A stretch of DNA of 64,000 nt from Magnetococcales bacterium HCHbin5 (GTDB lineage Bacteria > Pseudomonadota > Magnetococcia > Magnetococcales > Magnetaquicoccaceae), in NCBI GenBank assembly GCA_002753505.1, contig PEAG01000002.1:62001-126000 (forward strand). Reading direction: 5' to 3'. Numbering within the stretch: position 1 is the stretch's first letter; every line of letters begins with the position of its first letter. The translations under genes and the position numbers were made by a program. Positions 15,537-21,863 of this stretch are shown one piece after another. A model generated the notes under the pieces. That model was given only the letters and a program-made list of their open reading frames with translations. It was not told where the DNA came from and ran no database searches.

Positions 15537-16562
15537 ATGATCTCCAGATCCGGGAAGCTTCTGCCACACATGTCGATTCTCTTGCTGCTTGTTCTGACCC
15601 ACTGGTCCCGTATCGCCGTGGGAGAGGAGCCCACGCCGCAGCAACCGCTGGATCAGACCGAACAGGGTCATGTGGAGGCATGGCTGGAGAAGGGGTATGC
15701 GCTTCTGCGTGGACGTGACGCCTCTCCGGATGCTGCGGCCGCTATCCCGTGGCTGCGGAAGGCCGCTGAACAGGGCAACGGCATGGCTCAAATCCAACTG
15801 GCTGAACTGTACGTCACCGGCCAGGGCGTTGCACCGGACACCAAAGCGGCCATACGCTGGTATCAGATGGCCGCTGAACAGGGGATTGCCACGGCACAAT
15901 TTTATTTGGCTGAACTCCATTTCCGGGGTGAGGAGGGGAGCCTGGGGATTCAGGAGGCCGTACGGTGGTATGGCAAGGCGGCGGAACAGGGTATCGCCAT
16001 CAGCGCGGTCAAGCTGGCTGACATTCTGATCAATGGCGAGGGAGTGGAGCCGGACCCGGAGGAGGCCATGCGCTGGTACCGCAAGGCGGCGGATCTGGGC
16101 AATACCGACGCCTGTTTGGCCTTGGCCTATCGCTACTACAACGGCTTTGGTGTGGAGAAAGATCCGTTGATGGCCATGCGCTGGTATCTGCAGGCCGCTG
16201 AGCAGGGCAACGCCGAGGCACAGCTTAAACTGGCCTACCAATATTACAGCGGCCGTGGTGTCCCGAAAGATGACAGGTCGGCCTTTCAATGGTTTCGCCG
16301 GGCGGCGGAGCAGGGGTTGGCTGAGGCGCAGTTGGGTCTGGCCGGTCTTTATGCCTATGGGCAGGGGACGGATCGGGACTATGTGGCAGCCTATGTCTGG
16401 TTCAACTTGGCCGCGACCGGCGACGAGGCAGACGAGTTGACCAAACGGGCCCGTGCCGGGCGCGCAATGGCGGCCAAACAGTTGACCCCCGACCAGTTGG
16501 CCGATGCCCAACGGCTGGCGGCTGAGCGGTTTTTTAATCGACGACCCAGTGAACAACCATGA
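15537..16562 (+). CDS. Sel1-repeat (TPR-like) exported protein
   Basis: This is a signal peptide (SILLLLVLTHWSRIAVG) followed by about seven 36-residue Sel1 units. Each has an A-x-RWYxxAAEQG helix and an A-x-LAxLY-x-G-x-GV turn. Sel1 arrays are helical scaffolds for protein-protein contact, usually periplasmic when exported. ATG 15537 lies 11 nt after AAGGG; the GTG at 15525 is directly abutted by that sequence, so it is less likely. The stop overlaps the FecR-domain gene start (ATGA, 16559-16562), so the two products are probably made in fixed ratio and may interact. Confidence 0.88.
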   Translation: MISRSGKLLPHMSILLLLVLTHWSRIAVGEEPTPQQPLDQTEQGHVEAWLEKGYALLRGRDASPDAAAAIPWLRKAAEQGNGMAQIQLAELYVTGQGVAPDTKAAIRWYQMAAEQGIATAQFYLAELHFRGEEGSLGIQEAVRWYGKAAEQGIAISAVKLADILINGEGVEPDPEEAMRWYRKAADLGNTDACLALAYRYYNGFGVEKDPLMAMRWYLQAAEQGNAEAQLKLAYQYYSGRGVPKDDRSAFQWFRRAAEQGLAEAQLGLAGLYAYGQGTDRDYVAAYVWFNLAATGDEADELTKRARAGRAMAAKQLTPDQLADAQRLAAERFFNRRPSEQP

Positions 16563-19500
16563 AGACAATAGGGAGGCTCTCCCTGCTGGTTGCGCTGCTG
16601 CTATGGTTGGCATGGCTGTCGGTGGCCCAGGCGGCCGGGGAGGAGTCGCCACGCCATATCGGTCGGGTCATGCAATTGACCGGTCAGGTGTTCGGTCGTG
16701 TGGACCAGGCAGATCCGGTGGCCCTGCAGGTGAACGGCGAGTTGTTCGCCGATGAAGAGTTGACCACCCAGGCCCAATCCTCTCTGACCATCCAGTTTCG
16801 CGATGGTTCCACGTTTGCTGTTGGCCCCGATGCCAAAGTCATCCTCAATAAACTTCTCTTCAACCCCTTGGCCAGCCAATTGCAGAACAGCGTCAAGGTG
16901 GAAAAGGGGGCTTTTCGTTATACCTCCGGCTTTGCCGTCAAGAGTGCCAACGTCGCCATCAAAATGCCCAATATTTCGATCGGCGTACGGGGCACAGTGG
17001 CGGAAGGGTTGGTGGATTCGACCCTGCCCACCTTTTTTGCCATCCCCAAGGGGAGCGGCGTCCTCAGCAATGCGGCGGGTGAACAACCGGTGCAGGAGGG
17101 GGACGCCCTGGCCGCATTGGCGGATCAGCCTCCACCCAGACCAAGTGACATACCCGCTGCTGTCGCGGCCCAGGCAATACAACTGCTACAGGCAGAGGTG
17201 GGTGAGACCTTACCCATCGGCCAACCGTTGACCGAGGCGCAGCGGTTGGCCGATGCCATGGCCAACCAGATTCCCATGGCCGAACAGTTGGCTGGTTTCA
17301 ACTCGACACCTGGACCGAAAGAGGGGTGGATCCAGATGGGGGTGGGGGAGATAATCCGCCGTCTGATCCGTGGGCTGGATTGGCTTATCAACCAGTTTAA
17401 TCGGCTGGATGAGTGGCTCTCCACCGGTTTGCAGCGGGTTCTGGCCGAGGTTTCTCTGGTGCGCTCGGCACTAGCCCTCTCCTCGGATCAATTGAGTGGC
17501 GGTGCCCTTTCGTTGTTGACACAGGCGGCAAAGGTTGGTCTCCTGACGGGTGGAGATGCCCCCGTGAGTGCGGCACAGCAGGTCCAACAACAGGCATTTC
17601 GCCAGGAGGCTGAGCAACAGATACCTGATGCCGCCGCCCTGTTGGAGCAACATCGTCAGCAACAGCAGGCCAACAACTGGGAGAACAGCAAGCGGGGTAC
17701 CCAATCGGTGATTGGTGGGGCCGCCCTGGTGGCCAAGGATGATCTGGATATTGCCGGTATCGTGCAGGCGGCGGTTCAAGCCTCCTCAGGGGGGCAGGAG
17801 ATGGCTGCCGTCATAGTCAGCAGTGCCATGTCGGCCAAGGGCAAGACAGATTCAGCCGATGCGGCTGCCCACATTGTCTCGGCCGCATGCCGGGCGGATC
17901 CGAATATTGCGCAAACTGCGGCATCCAGCGCGGTAAGCAGTCTGTCCCAGGTTGACCGGAAAGAGTCGGCGGCCGTTATTGCCAGTGTGGCAGCTTCGAT
18001 TGCGCCCCAGAGTGCGGCACAGATTGCGGCGGCGGTTACTGCGGTTGCTGGCAAAGAGGTTGCGGGAGATATTGCCGCCTCGGTCAGCGCGGTGGTCAAA
18101 GCGGAGGGCGCAGCGATTGCGGCGGCGGTGGCCCAGGTGGCCGGACCTGAGAGTGCGGCTGAGGTGGCGGCAGCCGTGGTGCGCATGGTCGGTGCCAAGG
18201 AGGCTGCCCAGGTGGCGGGGGCGGTGGCCCAGGTCTCCGGGGCGCAGGCGGCGGTGGGGATTGCGGCGGCGGTGGCAAAATTGGCGGGCAGTGCCTCGGC
18301 GGAGATTGCCCAATCGGTCATAAAATCGGTGGGCATCAATTCGGTTCAAGCTGCTGCCGAGATGGCCGCTGCCCTGCTGGCGGTGACCGGCCGTCAGGAT
18401 GCAACTGCCCTGCTGGCGGTGGTATCCAAAGCGACCGGTATCAGTGCAGGCGAGGTAGAGGGGGCACTGGAGAGTGCCAAAAGCTCCAGGATTGTACAGG
18501 AAGCCATATTGACAGCCAAATCTGCTGAGACCAGGGCGGAGCAGTCTGAAAAGCAGGCACAGATCGCGGTGCAAAAGGTGGCTGTTACGGATCAGATCGC
18601 CAAAGATGTCGAGAAACGTCTTGAAGAGGCCTCCAAACCGGTGCCGTCTGTATTGCCCGAGCCGGTAAAGCCGGACAGTTCGCCTTCTGCTTCCGCGCCT
18701 GCTTCGACCTCCTCCCCGGCAGCGTCTTCGGCAGTGGGTGGGGATCGTTCCGGTGCCGGGTCGACTACGTCTGGAGGGGAGCAGATCAAGGAGGCTGCCC
18801 GCAGTTCAGCAGCAGAGGGCAGGAACCAGCAATCCGCCCAGGCTGTTGCCGAACGACAGATGTCGCAGGCCGTGGCCAGCGGTCAATCGGCACTCGAAAT
18901 TTTGAACGATGCGATCAAATCCGGTTCCATGACGATGGAACAAGCGGTGGCTTCTGCTGTGGATGCGGGTCTGGATCCTGCGGCGGTGACCAAGGCTGCG
19001 ATCACTTTGGGTGGTGATTCAGAAAAGATTGTTACCGCCGTGATCGAAGCCGGTGGTTCAGCCAGCGTGGTGGCCTCTGCGGCCATTCAGGCAGGAGGCG
19101 ATGCGGACAAGGCTCTTGCAGCGGCGTTGAATACGGGAGGCAGTGCCCGCGAGGTGGCCATGGCGGCCATTCAGGCAGGGGGCAATAGTGAGTCAGTGAT
19201 TTCGGTCGCTGTTCGGAGCGGCATGGCGGAACAACAGGTGATGTCGTTGGCTGTGCAATCGGGAGCCCGTGTCGAAGATGTGGCCCAATCCATGGTTCGG
19301 GCGGGAGGTGATGTCAAAGAGGTTGTCACGTTGGCTATACGATCGGGTGGTGCCGGTGATGCGGTGACCGCTGCCGTCATTGCCGGGGGAGGGGATGCGC
19401 GGCAGGTGGTGTCGGCTGCCATTCAGTCGGGAGGCGATGCCGGTCAGGTGACATCTGCGGCCATCAAGGCGGGTGGCAACGCGGGCGAAATCACTGCGGG

Positions 19501-19738
19501 TGCCATAGCCGCAGGCGGGTTGGTGCGTTTGGTGGTGGCTTCGGCCATTGCGGCCGGAGGCAGTGCAGCGGACGTGGTGATGGCGGCCAGTGTGCAGGCC
19601 CCTGACCAGGTCAAAAGCGCAGTGGAATCGGCCATCTCATCTGGTGTTGATCCGGGAGCCGCCCGCGCAGCCGGAACAGCAGGTCAATCCGTGGGGGAAC
19701 AACCCGTCAAGACGATCAAATCCGCCAGCCCATCCTGA
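16559..19738 (+). CDS. FecR-domain protein with two long internal repeat arrays
   Basis: This 1059-residue exported protein starts with a signal peptide (LSLLVALLLWLAWLSVAQA). A FecR domain follows at about residues 35-165, with GRVMQLTGQVFGRV, LTIQFRDGSTFAVGPDAKVIL and NISIGVRGTVAEGL. This FecR type is periplasmic and is known in several proteobacterial adhesin and caspase-like architectures. The rest is Ala-rich. Residues 489-617 form about eight 16-residue units. Residues 665-785 are a charged helix and a Ser/Pro/Ala linker. Residues 801-1010 form fifteen 14-residue units. It is coupled to the Sel1 gene by ATGA overlap. The repeats look like helical solenoids. No enzymatic site is seen and the function is unknown. 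Confidence 0.8.
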   Translation: MKTIGRLSLLVALLLWLAWLSVAQAAGEESPRHIGRVMQLTGQVFGRVDQADPVALQVNGELFADEELTTQAQSSLTIQFRDGSTFAVGPDAKVILNKLLFNPLASQLQNSVKVEKGAFRYTSGFAVKSANVAIKMPNISIGVRGTVAEGLVDSTLPTFFAIPKGSGVLSNAAGEQPVQEGDALAALADQPPPRPSDIPAAVAAQAIQLLQAEVGETLPIGQPLTEAQRLADAMANQIPMAEQLAGFNSTPGPKEGWIQMGVGEIIRRLIRGLDWLINQFNRLDEWLSTGLQRVLAEVSLVRSALALSSDQLSGGALSLLTQAAKVGLLTGGDAPVSAAQQVQQQAFRQEAEQQIPDAAALLEQHRQQQQANNWENSKRGTQSVIGGAALVAKDDLDIAGIVQAAVQASSGGQEMAAVIVSSAMSAKGKTDSADAAAHIVSAACRADPNIAQTAASSAVSSLSQVDRKESAAVIASVAASIAPQSAAQIAAAVTAVAGKEVAGDIAASVSAVVKAEGAAIAAAVAQVAGPESAAEVAAAVVRMVGAKEAAQVAGAVAQVSGAQAAVGIAAAVAKLAGSASAEIAQSVIKSVGINSVQAAAEMAAALLAVTGRQDATALLAVVSKATGISAGEVEGALESAKSSRIVQEAILTAKSAETRAEQSEKQAQIAVQKVAVTDQIAKDVEKRLEEASKPVPSVLPEPVKPDSSPSASAPASTSSPAASSAVGGDRSGAGSTTSGGEQIKEAARSSAAEGRNQQSAQAVAERQMSQAVASGQSALEILNDAIKSGSMTMEQAVASAVDAGLDPAAVTKAAITLGGDSEKIVTAVIEAGGSASVVASAAIQAGGDADKALAAALNTGGSAREVAMAAIQAGGNSESVISVAVRSGMAEQQVMSLAVQSGARVEDVAQSMVRAGGDVKEVVTLAIRSGGAGDAVTAAVIAGGGDARQVVSAAIQSGGDAGQVTSAAIKAGGNAGEITAGAIAAGGLVRLVVASAIAAGGSAADVVMAASVQAPDQVKSAVESAISSGVDPGAARAAGTAGQSVGEQPVKTIKSASPS
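18023..18409 (+). repeat. Coding repeat array, 16-residue period
   Basis: Residues 489-617 of the FecR-domain protein repeat about eight times with a 15-16 residue period (one unit is 19). The consensus is roughly [IV]AAAVAxVxGxxAAAE. Copies are diverged at DNA level. The strong Ala/Val/Gly bias suggests packed short helices. Confidence 0.75.
18959..19588 (+). repeat. Coding repeat array, fifteen 14-residue (42-bp) units
   Basis: Residues 801-1010 of the FecR-domain protein split cleanly into fifteen 14-residue units with no gaps. The consensus is [IV]x[AS]GG[DNS]AxxVxxAA. The 42-bp units have diverged in DNA but keep exact length, which suggests selection on protein geometry rather than recent slippage. 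Confidence 0.85.
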
Positions 19739-19772: not shown

Positions 19773-20924
19773 CTAACGCAGCGTTTTCAGGTATAAAATA
19801 ACCTGCCAGATCTCGTCCCTGTTCAGAATGGCGCGGAATTGGGGCATGTGGCCACCAAAGGCGTTGCCTCCCTCAGCGACGATCCAGAACAGGTAGGCAT
19901 CTCTTTCCAGCAGCCCGTCCCCAGCCCACCCCAATGTATTGGACGGAAAGCTCAAGGCAAAGGCGTCCGGTCCATCATTGCGGCCATTGTCACCGTGGCA
20001 TCGCGCACAATTATCCACAAAGATCTTTCTGCCTGCATATATGTTTTCCTGAACCATTGGTACGGGATTGGCCAATAGATTGGTCGAAACACAACTTGTC
20101 TTAAGATATTCTCTGCAATAATAATCCTTCATGCCGCTCTTGAAAAAGACTTCAATCTTTTTGTCTGTTTTTTTATCATTTTTATCGGATTTGTCCACCG
20201 CACTGTCCTGGATTGTGCGGTGCGTTTCTTTCGCTGTTTGCCATAACAAAGAGTCGCTAAAATGAAAACTTACATAAGTCAGCAAGAGCACTACGGCCGC
20301 AGCCAGGAAAAGAGAAACCGAATGGCTGCGTCTCTTGGCAACCGGCTCAGGGTCATGATCGTCATCCGATAAATCGGCATGGGAGTCGGGAGGTTTAGCG
20401 GTGGTTCCGGTGGGAACAACCCTTTTTTCGGCTCTTTGTTGCACCCCTGGAGGTTTGCCCTGTCCGACTCCATACAGCAAAGACTCAATTTGCAGGTTAA
20501 CAGCCAGACCACCATCGGTCAGCAGCAGCCGATACAATTTAATCAGCGGGTTATGGGCAATGACCCCCTCTTGTAGCAAGACCAGAAAAAAATCAATTAT
20601 ACATGAGATCTCTGTAGAAATTGTGGCACGCGCGACACCCTTTTTCAGTTGCCACTGGAAATAAGCAATCACATCCTCTTCTGAGACTGCATTTACCCGT
20701 TTTCCCAGTTTATAAACAAAAATCAGGAATGGAAAAATGATTTCAAAATGATTGGCAAGGGTTGCTTCATCAAGATATTTCTGGGCAACCATGTTGTAAA
20801 GACTACAGATGCTCCGCAACTCCTCCTGGTGTCGGGCCGGGATGGATTGAAACGTTCCATCTGTCCGACTGACAGCAAGAAGTTTGTCGATCAATCTGCG
20901 CGGATGCTGCAACTGGGTTTTCAT
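19773..20924 (-). CDS. Membrane-anchored c-type cytochrome with recombinase SAM-like N-terminal domain
   Basis: This 383-residue protein starts at ATG 20924 behind GAGG. Residues 45-128 resemble the SAM-like core-binding domain of tyrosine recombinases: a helix pair, then SEEDVIAYFQWQLKKGVARA, TISTEISCIIDFFLVLL and VIAHNPL. A charged linker follows, then a membrane helix at about 202-222. The C-terminal domain is a mono-haem cytochrome c with CARCH at 306-310 and axial Met probably at 360 in GGHMPQF. No catalytic recombinase domain exists, so recombinase activity is excluded. The cytoplasmic half may bind DNA or protein while the haem sits in the periplasm; this is inference. No obvious operon partner. 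Confidence 0.8.
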   Translation of the reverse strand: MKTQLQHPRRLIDKLLAVSRTDGTFQSIPARHQEELRSICSLYNMVAQKYLDEATLANHFEIIFPFLIFVYKLGKRVNAVSEEDVIAYFQWQLKKGVARATISTEISCIIDFFLVLLQEGVIAHNPLIKLYRLLLTDGGLAVNLQIESLLYGVGQGKPPGVQQRAEKRVVPTGTTAKPPDSHADLSDDDHDPEPVAKRRSHSVSLFLAAAVVLLLTYVSFHFSDSLLWQTAKETHRTIQDSAVDKSDKNDKKTDKKIEVFFKSGMKDYYCREYLKTSCVSTNLLANPVPMVQENIYAGRKIFVDNCARCHGDNGRNDGPDAFALSFPSNTLGWAGDGLLERDAYLFWIVAEGGNAFGGHMPQFRAILNRDEIWQVILYLKTLR

Positions 20925-21482
20925 TCAGAATTCCTCTGGGTGTGGCTCTTTTTCGATGGCGCAGTTTCAAGCGAACTTGCTCGTACCCGCGCATACTGCT
21001 TGATCACCTGAACAATCATTATCACCAGCTGCCGTTTTCTGTCCGGGGTGACTACCCCTGTCGGTATAGAATTTGTGTTTCATGGATGAATGCAAGTTGC
21101 CAATGGGATCGTGCCTTGTGCGGAGACAGCAGAAGACTGTTTCCTTCGTCTCGGTATGCGCGTCGCTGTATTTCATTATAGCAATAGCGTTTATCTTGTC
21201 TACCGTGGATGACGCTTTTTCATGCCTTCCCGGGGTTGGATGCCGGTTTTGGATCTTGCTTGACACTGGTTGAAACTGAATGGTAGGGTGGGAGGCTGAG
21301 ATGTATATGTCGTGGCTGGTTTCCAGGGAGACCCGACCATCGTGTAAGTCAGGCGGCACTCCTGAAGGGCGGTCGATTGGAGACCGTAGACTGGGTTGCA
21401 GGCCGTGCATACAACTCATTGAACAGGTGCAGCAGGACATAGCAGCCTCCCGCAGGCAAGTGATGAGATATCCGTCCATTCC
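20925..21482 (+). other. Intergenic stretch without a supported gene
   Basis: About 560 bp between the cytochrome gene and the trkH remnant. Short frames exist on both strands, but none has recognisable motifs plus a ribosome site. The minus strand stays open over much of it, but the translation is low-quality and continues antisense to trkH. It looks like decayed sequence, consistent with the adjacent truncated gene. Confidence 0.5.
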
Positions 21483-21863
21483 ATGAATTATTCTTCTGTT
21501 GCCAATGTTTTCGGTACCTTGTTGATTGTGATCGGCAGCTCTATGCTGCTGCCGGCCGTCTGTTCGATCTATTACAGGGAAGACGACCTGAATGCCATCG
21601 TCGTTTCTTCCTTCCTCATCATCTGCCTGGGTATTCCCCTGAGATGGATTTTTCGTAACCATCACCTTCTCAATATTCGGGATGGCTTGTTTATAGCCAC
21701 CTTTGGTTGGATTGCCATCTCTGCCTTCTCGGCCATTCCCTTTATGATTCATGGTTCCATCCCGTCGTTGCGGGCGGAATGTCGTTGTTTGATGCCCATG
21801 CGGGTCCGGCCCGTGCCTTCCCCGATGCCCGGTCCCAATCGGGCAATGAACAAAGCGGCATGA
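21483..21863 (+). pseudogene. trkH: Truncated TrkH/KtrB potassium-uptake protein
   Basis: The first 95 or so residues match the TrkH opening: MNYSSVANVFGTLLIVIGSSML, then YYREDDLNAIVVSSFLII, and LNIRDGLFIATFGWIAISAF ending AIPFMIHGSIPS. An intact TrkH is about 480 residues and continues with the first selectivity-filter loop. Here similarity stops near 21767 and an unrelated Arg/Pro-rich tail runs to a stop at 21863. There is no good ribosome site. A functional potassium channel is not possible from this fragment. The adjacent maeB gene is intact. Confidence 0.75.

Follow-up and report, generated by a model that had tools for sequence, protein, structure and literature searches.

Magnetotactic cocci steer toward the oxic-anoxic boundary. 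Before a recent study of Magnetospirillum no aerotaxis chemoreceptor had been experimentally identified in magnetotactic bacteria (PMC12442639). The bipartite receptor described there, CetA2/CetB2, senses redox changes through protein contact, but it is FAD-dependent and has neither the cytochrome c nor the recombinase fold of the proteins described here. Another comparison is with the Geobacter chemoreceptors GSU0935 and GSU0582, in which a membrane part likewise couples a periplasmic c-haem to a domain for cytoplasmic signalling (PMC3460858). These receptors sense with a PAS fold and have an MCP as output, whereas the family described here combines a class-I cytochrome c with phospho-receiver (REC), hemerythrin or core-binding (CB) heads. 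The CB domain is the part of tyrosine recombinases that binds the recombination site (PMC8138268). The recombinase fold in another use is known from MrpR (YopR), the master repressor of SPbeta (PMC10516654), but there the resemblance extends over the entire recombinase fold and DNA is bound, whereas the protein studied here keeps the CB domain alone and has lost its basic residues.

The window, a stretch of 64,000 nucleotides, belongs to a Magnetococcales genome of 4.19 Mb that is 99% complete (G000). The gene occupies exactly positions 19773-20924 of the minus strand, which also carries all features of the protein given below. It encodes 383 residues from an ATG start, with a Shine-Dalgarno-like AGAGGA 7 nt upstream (20932-20937). 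The ORF, Pfam and the family alignment give the order CB domain, linker, membrane helix and cytochrome c. The catalytic domain of the recombinases, with its RKHRH residues and Tyr nucleophile, is absent; past residue 135 there are only the linker, the membrane helix and the cytochrome. The linker, residues 136-200 (20325-20519), is charged and of low confidence in the AF2 model (pLDDT mostly below 60). This domain order had been read from the sequence in the original prediction, and Pfam, the ORF and AF2 bear it out. An assembly join, a frameshift or a misread was ruled out as its origin, because a search for more proteins with the same domain order found 13 further ones in related genomes. 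A local integrase gene fragment or a replacement of XerC/D was also ruled out; the genome has two complete Xer genes elsewhere.

The recombinase-like head was examined with profiles and with structure comparison. Phage_int_SAM_4, the Pfam profile of the phage-integrase N-terminal SAM-like domain, matches residues 48-118 (5.4e-4), and the NCBIfam profile of XerD, TIGR02225, matches residues 49-130 (1.5e-4), both below the curated cut-off. When an alignment of 16 related N-terminal domains was compared with an alignment of XerD-type recombinases from Magnetococcales, hhalign gave a probability of 91 (P 1.1e-6), while 40 column-shuffled head alignments reached a probability of at most 3. The AF2 model of the head has five helices (residues 30-47, 53-72, 82-94, 99-118 and 128-135), and pLDDT is above 90 for most of residues 30-130. 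With this model the first 26 places of a Foldseek search of the PDB were all tyrosine recombinases, although the best E-value is weak, 0.19; the matches include XerA, the Tn1549 integrase, Cre, the lambda integrase and XerD. An hmmsearch of the PDB sequences with the head alignment gave insignificant matches only, Cre among them. A chance match between helical domains was ruled out by the shuffled alignments and by the uniformity of the Foldseek result, with no unrelated helical domain in the first 26 places. Since hhalign, AF2 and Foldseek agree, the fold of residues 30-135 (20520-20837) is confirmed as that of a tyrosine-recombinase CB domain, and the SAM-like core originally proposed for residues 45-128 stands. 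The head shares the helical fold and the conserved DL...G...NP pattern with XerC/XerD, XerA, Cre and the lambda and Tn1549 integrases, but its protein differs from them in having no catalytic domain, in the replacement of near-invariant basic residues, and in being membrane-anchored.

The loss of these residues bears on an early suggestion, that of a DNA-tethering or redox-controlled DNA-binding protein whose CB domain would attach chromosomal DNA to the membrane. In the XerD proteins of Magnetococcales, the CB domain has seven positions at which 84-100% of the sequences show Arg or Lys. Residues of this kind contact DNA in the Cre and XerD structures. Among the 16 cytochrome-linked CB domains, six of the seven positions never carry a basic residue, and the seventh does so in 31%. 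Asp is invariant at one position (16 of 16; Asp111 in the window protein, codon at 20592-20594), which is mostly Arg in the local XerD proteins. The loss of these near-invariant residues and the invariant Asp make DNA binding of the Xer type unlikely. The net charge of the cytochrome-linked domains averages about zero, but this is not decisive by itself: the average for the CB domains of XerD is more acidic still, and overall charge fails to tell the two groups apart. That the fold belongs to a DNA-binding domain, and that catalytically dead recombinases such as MrpR of SPbeta can act as repressors (PMC10516654), speak for a tether, which we nevertheless regard as very improbable.

The same domain also recurs in a second membrane family, which further weakens the tethering idea. 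These proteins (L104-L118 and L120-L123, from several Magnetococcales genera) have a zinc ribbon-like N-terminus, one or two CB domains, a membrane helix and MORN-type repeats; the MORN match was checked with Pfam in L109, and L121 has ankyrin repeats instead. Because the CB module is found repeatedly next to the inner face of the membrane, combined with varying outer parts, it looks like an adaptor and not like a sequence-specific DNA binder.

The C-terminal part of the window protein is a class-I mono-haem cytochrome c domain, residues 284-383 (19776-20075). PF13442 (4.6e-11) and PF00034 (1.1e-10) match residues 296-382, both over the cut-off. The haem-attachment CxxCH (residues 306-310, 19995-20009) and the distal Met, in the invariant Met360-Pro361 (19842-19847), are conserved throughout the family alignment, as expected of a class-I cytochrome c, and Met360 is the likely axial ligand. 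Such invariance points to a six-coordinate haem for electron transfer, and direct sensing of a gas becomes less likely. A membrane-anchored class-I c-haem domain is also found in CcoP, subunit III of the cbb3 oxidase, and Pfam Cytochrome_CBB3 matches the window protein; however, the protein has one haem only and scores 25.4 bits with the NCBIfam ccoP model, far below the cut-off of 179.95, and is thus not a CcoP equivalog. Between membrane and cytochrome lies an extension, residues 257-283 (20076-20156), with the consensus YFYxxxxxxYYCxxYLxxxC and invariant C270 and C278.

A single membrane helix was predicted at residues 202-220; hydropathy, the positive-inside count and an AF2 helix at 201-227 give a signal anchor of about residues 201-223 (20256-20324). 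Over 21 relatives there are 81 Lys and Arg residues on the N-terminal side of this helix and 28 on the C-terminal side, which argues that the head is cytoplasmic and that extension and cytochrome are periplasmic. Attachment of c-haem takes place in the periplasm. The window genome has CcmF, of cytochrome c maturation, and the haem is probably attached covalently in that compartment.

When the C-terminal part was searched against 48 Magnetococcales genomes, 19 proteins in 13 of them were found to have the same membrane helix, two-cysteine extension and cytochrome. The protein had been regarded as an oddity without any described system, and a literature search for its domain combination gave no match; it appears instead as one member of a modular Magnetococcales family. 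Fourteen of the 19 heads are CB domains, three are REC domains (1.4e-21 to 3.9e-19), one is a hemerythrin (2.3e-12) and one protein, a paralogue encoded in the window genome itself, has no recognisable head. There are also two more distant CB-headed members and one head-less one (L038, L039 and L040). In alignments read by eye, the phospho-Asp, Thr/Ser and Lys of the REC heads are retained, as is the ligand pattern of the hemerythrin head. A tree of the cytochrome part implies at least five changes of head; the hemerythrin head nests within a clade of CB heads with moderate support (86/86). Several head types can occur inside a single genome (G000, G005, G028, G030 and G042), a likeness to receptor families. 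In the hemerythrin-headed protein (L045, 2617-3702, minus strand) the seven-ligand pattern of bacteriohemerythrins is apparently complete by eye, and its oxygen-binding centre and haem centre would lie on opposite sides of the membrane.

In a search of genome contigs with the cytochrome alignment, the named matches were from Magnetococcales only, while a search of genome contigs with the single protein and a search of viral contigs gave no match. A sample of 398 genomes of the phylum contains cytochromes of a similar kind, and none outside Magnetococcales has the full two-cysteine extension. Plasmids gave matches to the cytochrome part only, and the three inspected are free-standing cytochromes near cation-transport and metal-related genes. 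Several near-complete Magnetococcales genomes, the single-contig G027 among them, also lack a family match, so Magnetococcales as a whole do not depend on the family.

We suggest, with a probability of about 0.5, that the window protein belongs to a family of membrane-anchored redox receptors found in Magnetococcales, in which the CB-derived head serves as a protein-protein module. The fixed input would be a periplasmic His/Met cytochrome c, its redox state set either by the respiratory chain or by a donor or acceptor from outside, and the single membrane helix would join it to an exchangeable cytoplasmic head, here a former recombinase CB domain and in the paralogues a phospho-receiver or a hemerythrin. 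The state of the haem, or an assembly driven by the periplasmic part, may then alter the contacts of the head with cytoplasmic proteins. The recombinase-derived head would be a module for protein contacts, perhaps for self-association, and no DNA binder. The computation establishes the architecture, the fold, the family, the exchange of heads, the loss of basic residues and the phosphorelay genes next to REC heads, while the covalent haem, the topology, the direction of the signal, the partner and the output in this model are inferred. That the same membrane helix, extension and cytochrome are found with four head states speaks for a receptor. Against it, the CB head has no fused output domain or kinase. 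A known signalling domain on the cytoplasmic side is present in the REC-headed paralogues, though not in the CB head itself.

Gene neighbours were read from the genome stretches with a simple ORF picker. The REC-headed L035 and L048, from two families, adjoin genes for a stand-alone receiver and for a hybrid histidine kinase that includes Hpt, so that at least two REC-headed genes have phosphorelay neighbours. Because of these neighbours and the exchange for REC and hemerythrin heads, the redox-sensor half of the original prediction gains support, while its DNA-tethering half does not. When neighbourhoods were compared, no partner was conserved next to all CB-headed genes. Four members from the genus of the window genome, the head-less G000 paralogue included, adjoin an exopolysaccharide cluster with Wzy, Wzz/kinase, Poly_export and BBP2_2. 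That paralogue (L041, 8660-9568, minus strand, on G000:C111) lies between an MCP gene and the cluster.

These last genes fit the main rival explanation, in which the protein is a membrane-anchored periplasmic electron carrier whose cytochrome shuttles electrons, and the head would serve for anchorage or positioning, for instance at an exopolysaccharide or respiratory assembly, and would have no signalling role. In the full-length model the C-terminal part matches cytochrome c552 (PDB 9vr0, 7o9u) and cytochromes of alternative complex III, as an ordinary class-I carrier would, and the window genome holds a paralogue with no recognisable head. A receptor would be hard to tell from a simple membrane-anchored electron carrier whose head is a scaffold. 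This explanation leaves the repeated exchange for REC and hemerythrin heads and the phosphorelay neighbours unaccounted for, and we consider it possible but rather unlikely.

Another explanation starts from the tail-to-tail neighbour in the window, a candidate partner at 16559-19738 on the plus strand, which is a secreted protein of 1059 residues with a FecR domain (1.3e-7) and AGG-type repeats. It is conceivable that the head oligomerises or acts as a scaffold together with this protein and the cell envelope (exopolysaccharide or surface layer), while the cytochrome supplies or senses electrons for chemical reactions of the envelope. Relatives of the repeat part are also tail-to-tail with a CB-headed gene in G008 and G013, which together with G000 makes three genomes of two genera, but the version in G008 and G013 is short and has no FecR domain. 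Long FecR/AGG-repeat relatives occur in eight other Magnetococcales genomes, mostly also with the cytochrome family. Overall the family (13 genomes) and the repeat (12 genomes) coincide in 11, though related genomes are not independent; in G003 and G028 both are on the same contig. In most genomes, however, the two genes are not linked; the cytochrome family occurs in G002 and G030 where the repeat is missing, and in G006 the repeat is present but the cytochrome family is not. We find this envelope scaffold improbable.

Returning to the redox receptor, periplasmic cytochromes with swappable cytoplasmic heads are a concrete candidate for redox sensing in Magnetococcales and, if the reading is true, the DNA-binding fold of a recombinase has been re-used away from DNA. 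A broader proposal, which we put forward tentatively and hold to be somewhat doubtful, is that the CB fold serves, independently of DNA, as a cytoplasmic domain for signalling or as an adaptor in both the cytochrome c receptors and the zinc ribbon-CB-membrane helix-MORN/ankyrin family, and that these may make up an undescribed system by which magnetotactic cocci respond to redox conditions or oxygen.

Two observations were made beside the genes of the family. In the window, an ORF of 126 residues at 21483-21863 on the plus strand ends just before a malic-enzyme gene; Pfam gave no match to it, and its initial portion looks by eye like the beginning of a TrkH potassium transporter, so that a truncated TrkH remnant is only a guess. 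In G002 (L044, 6944-9671, minus strand), the CB-headed gene adjoins what appear by eye to be the genes for the large and small subunits of a [NiFe] hydrogenase.
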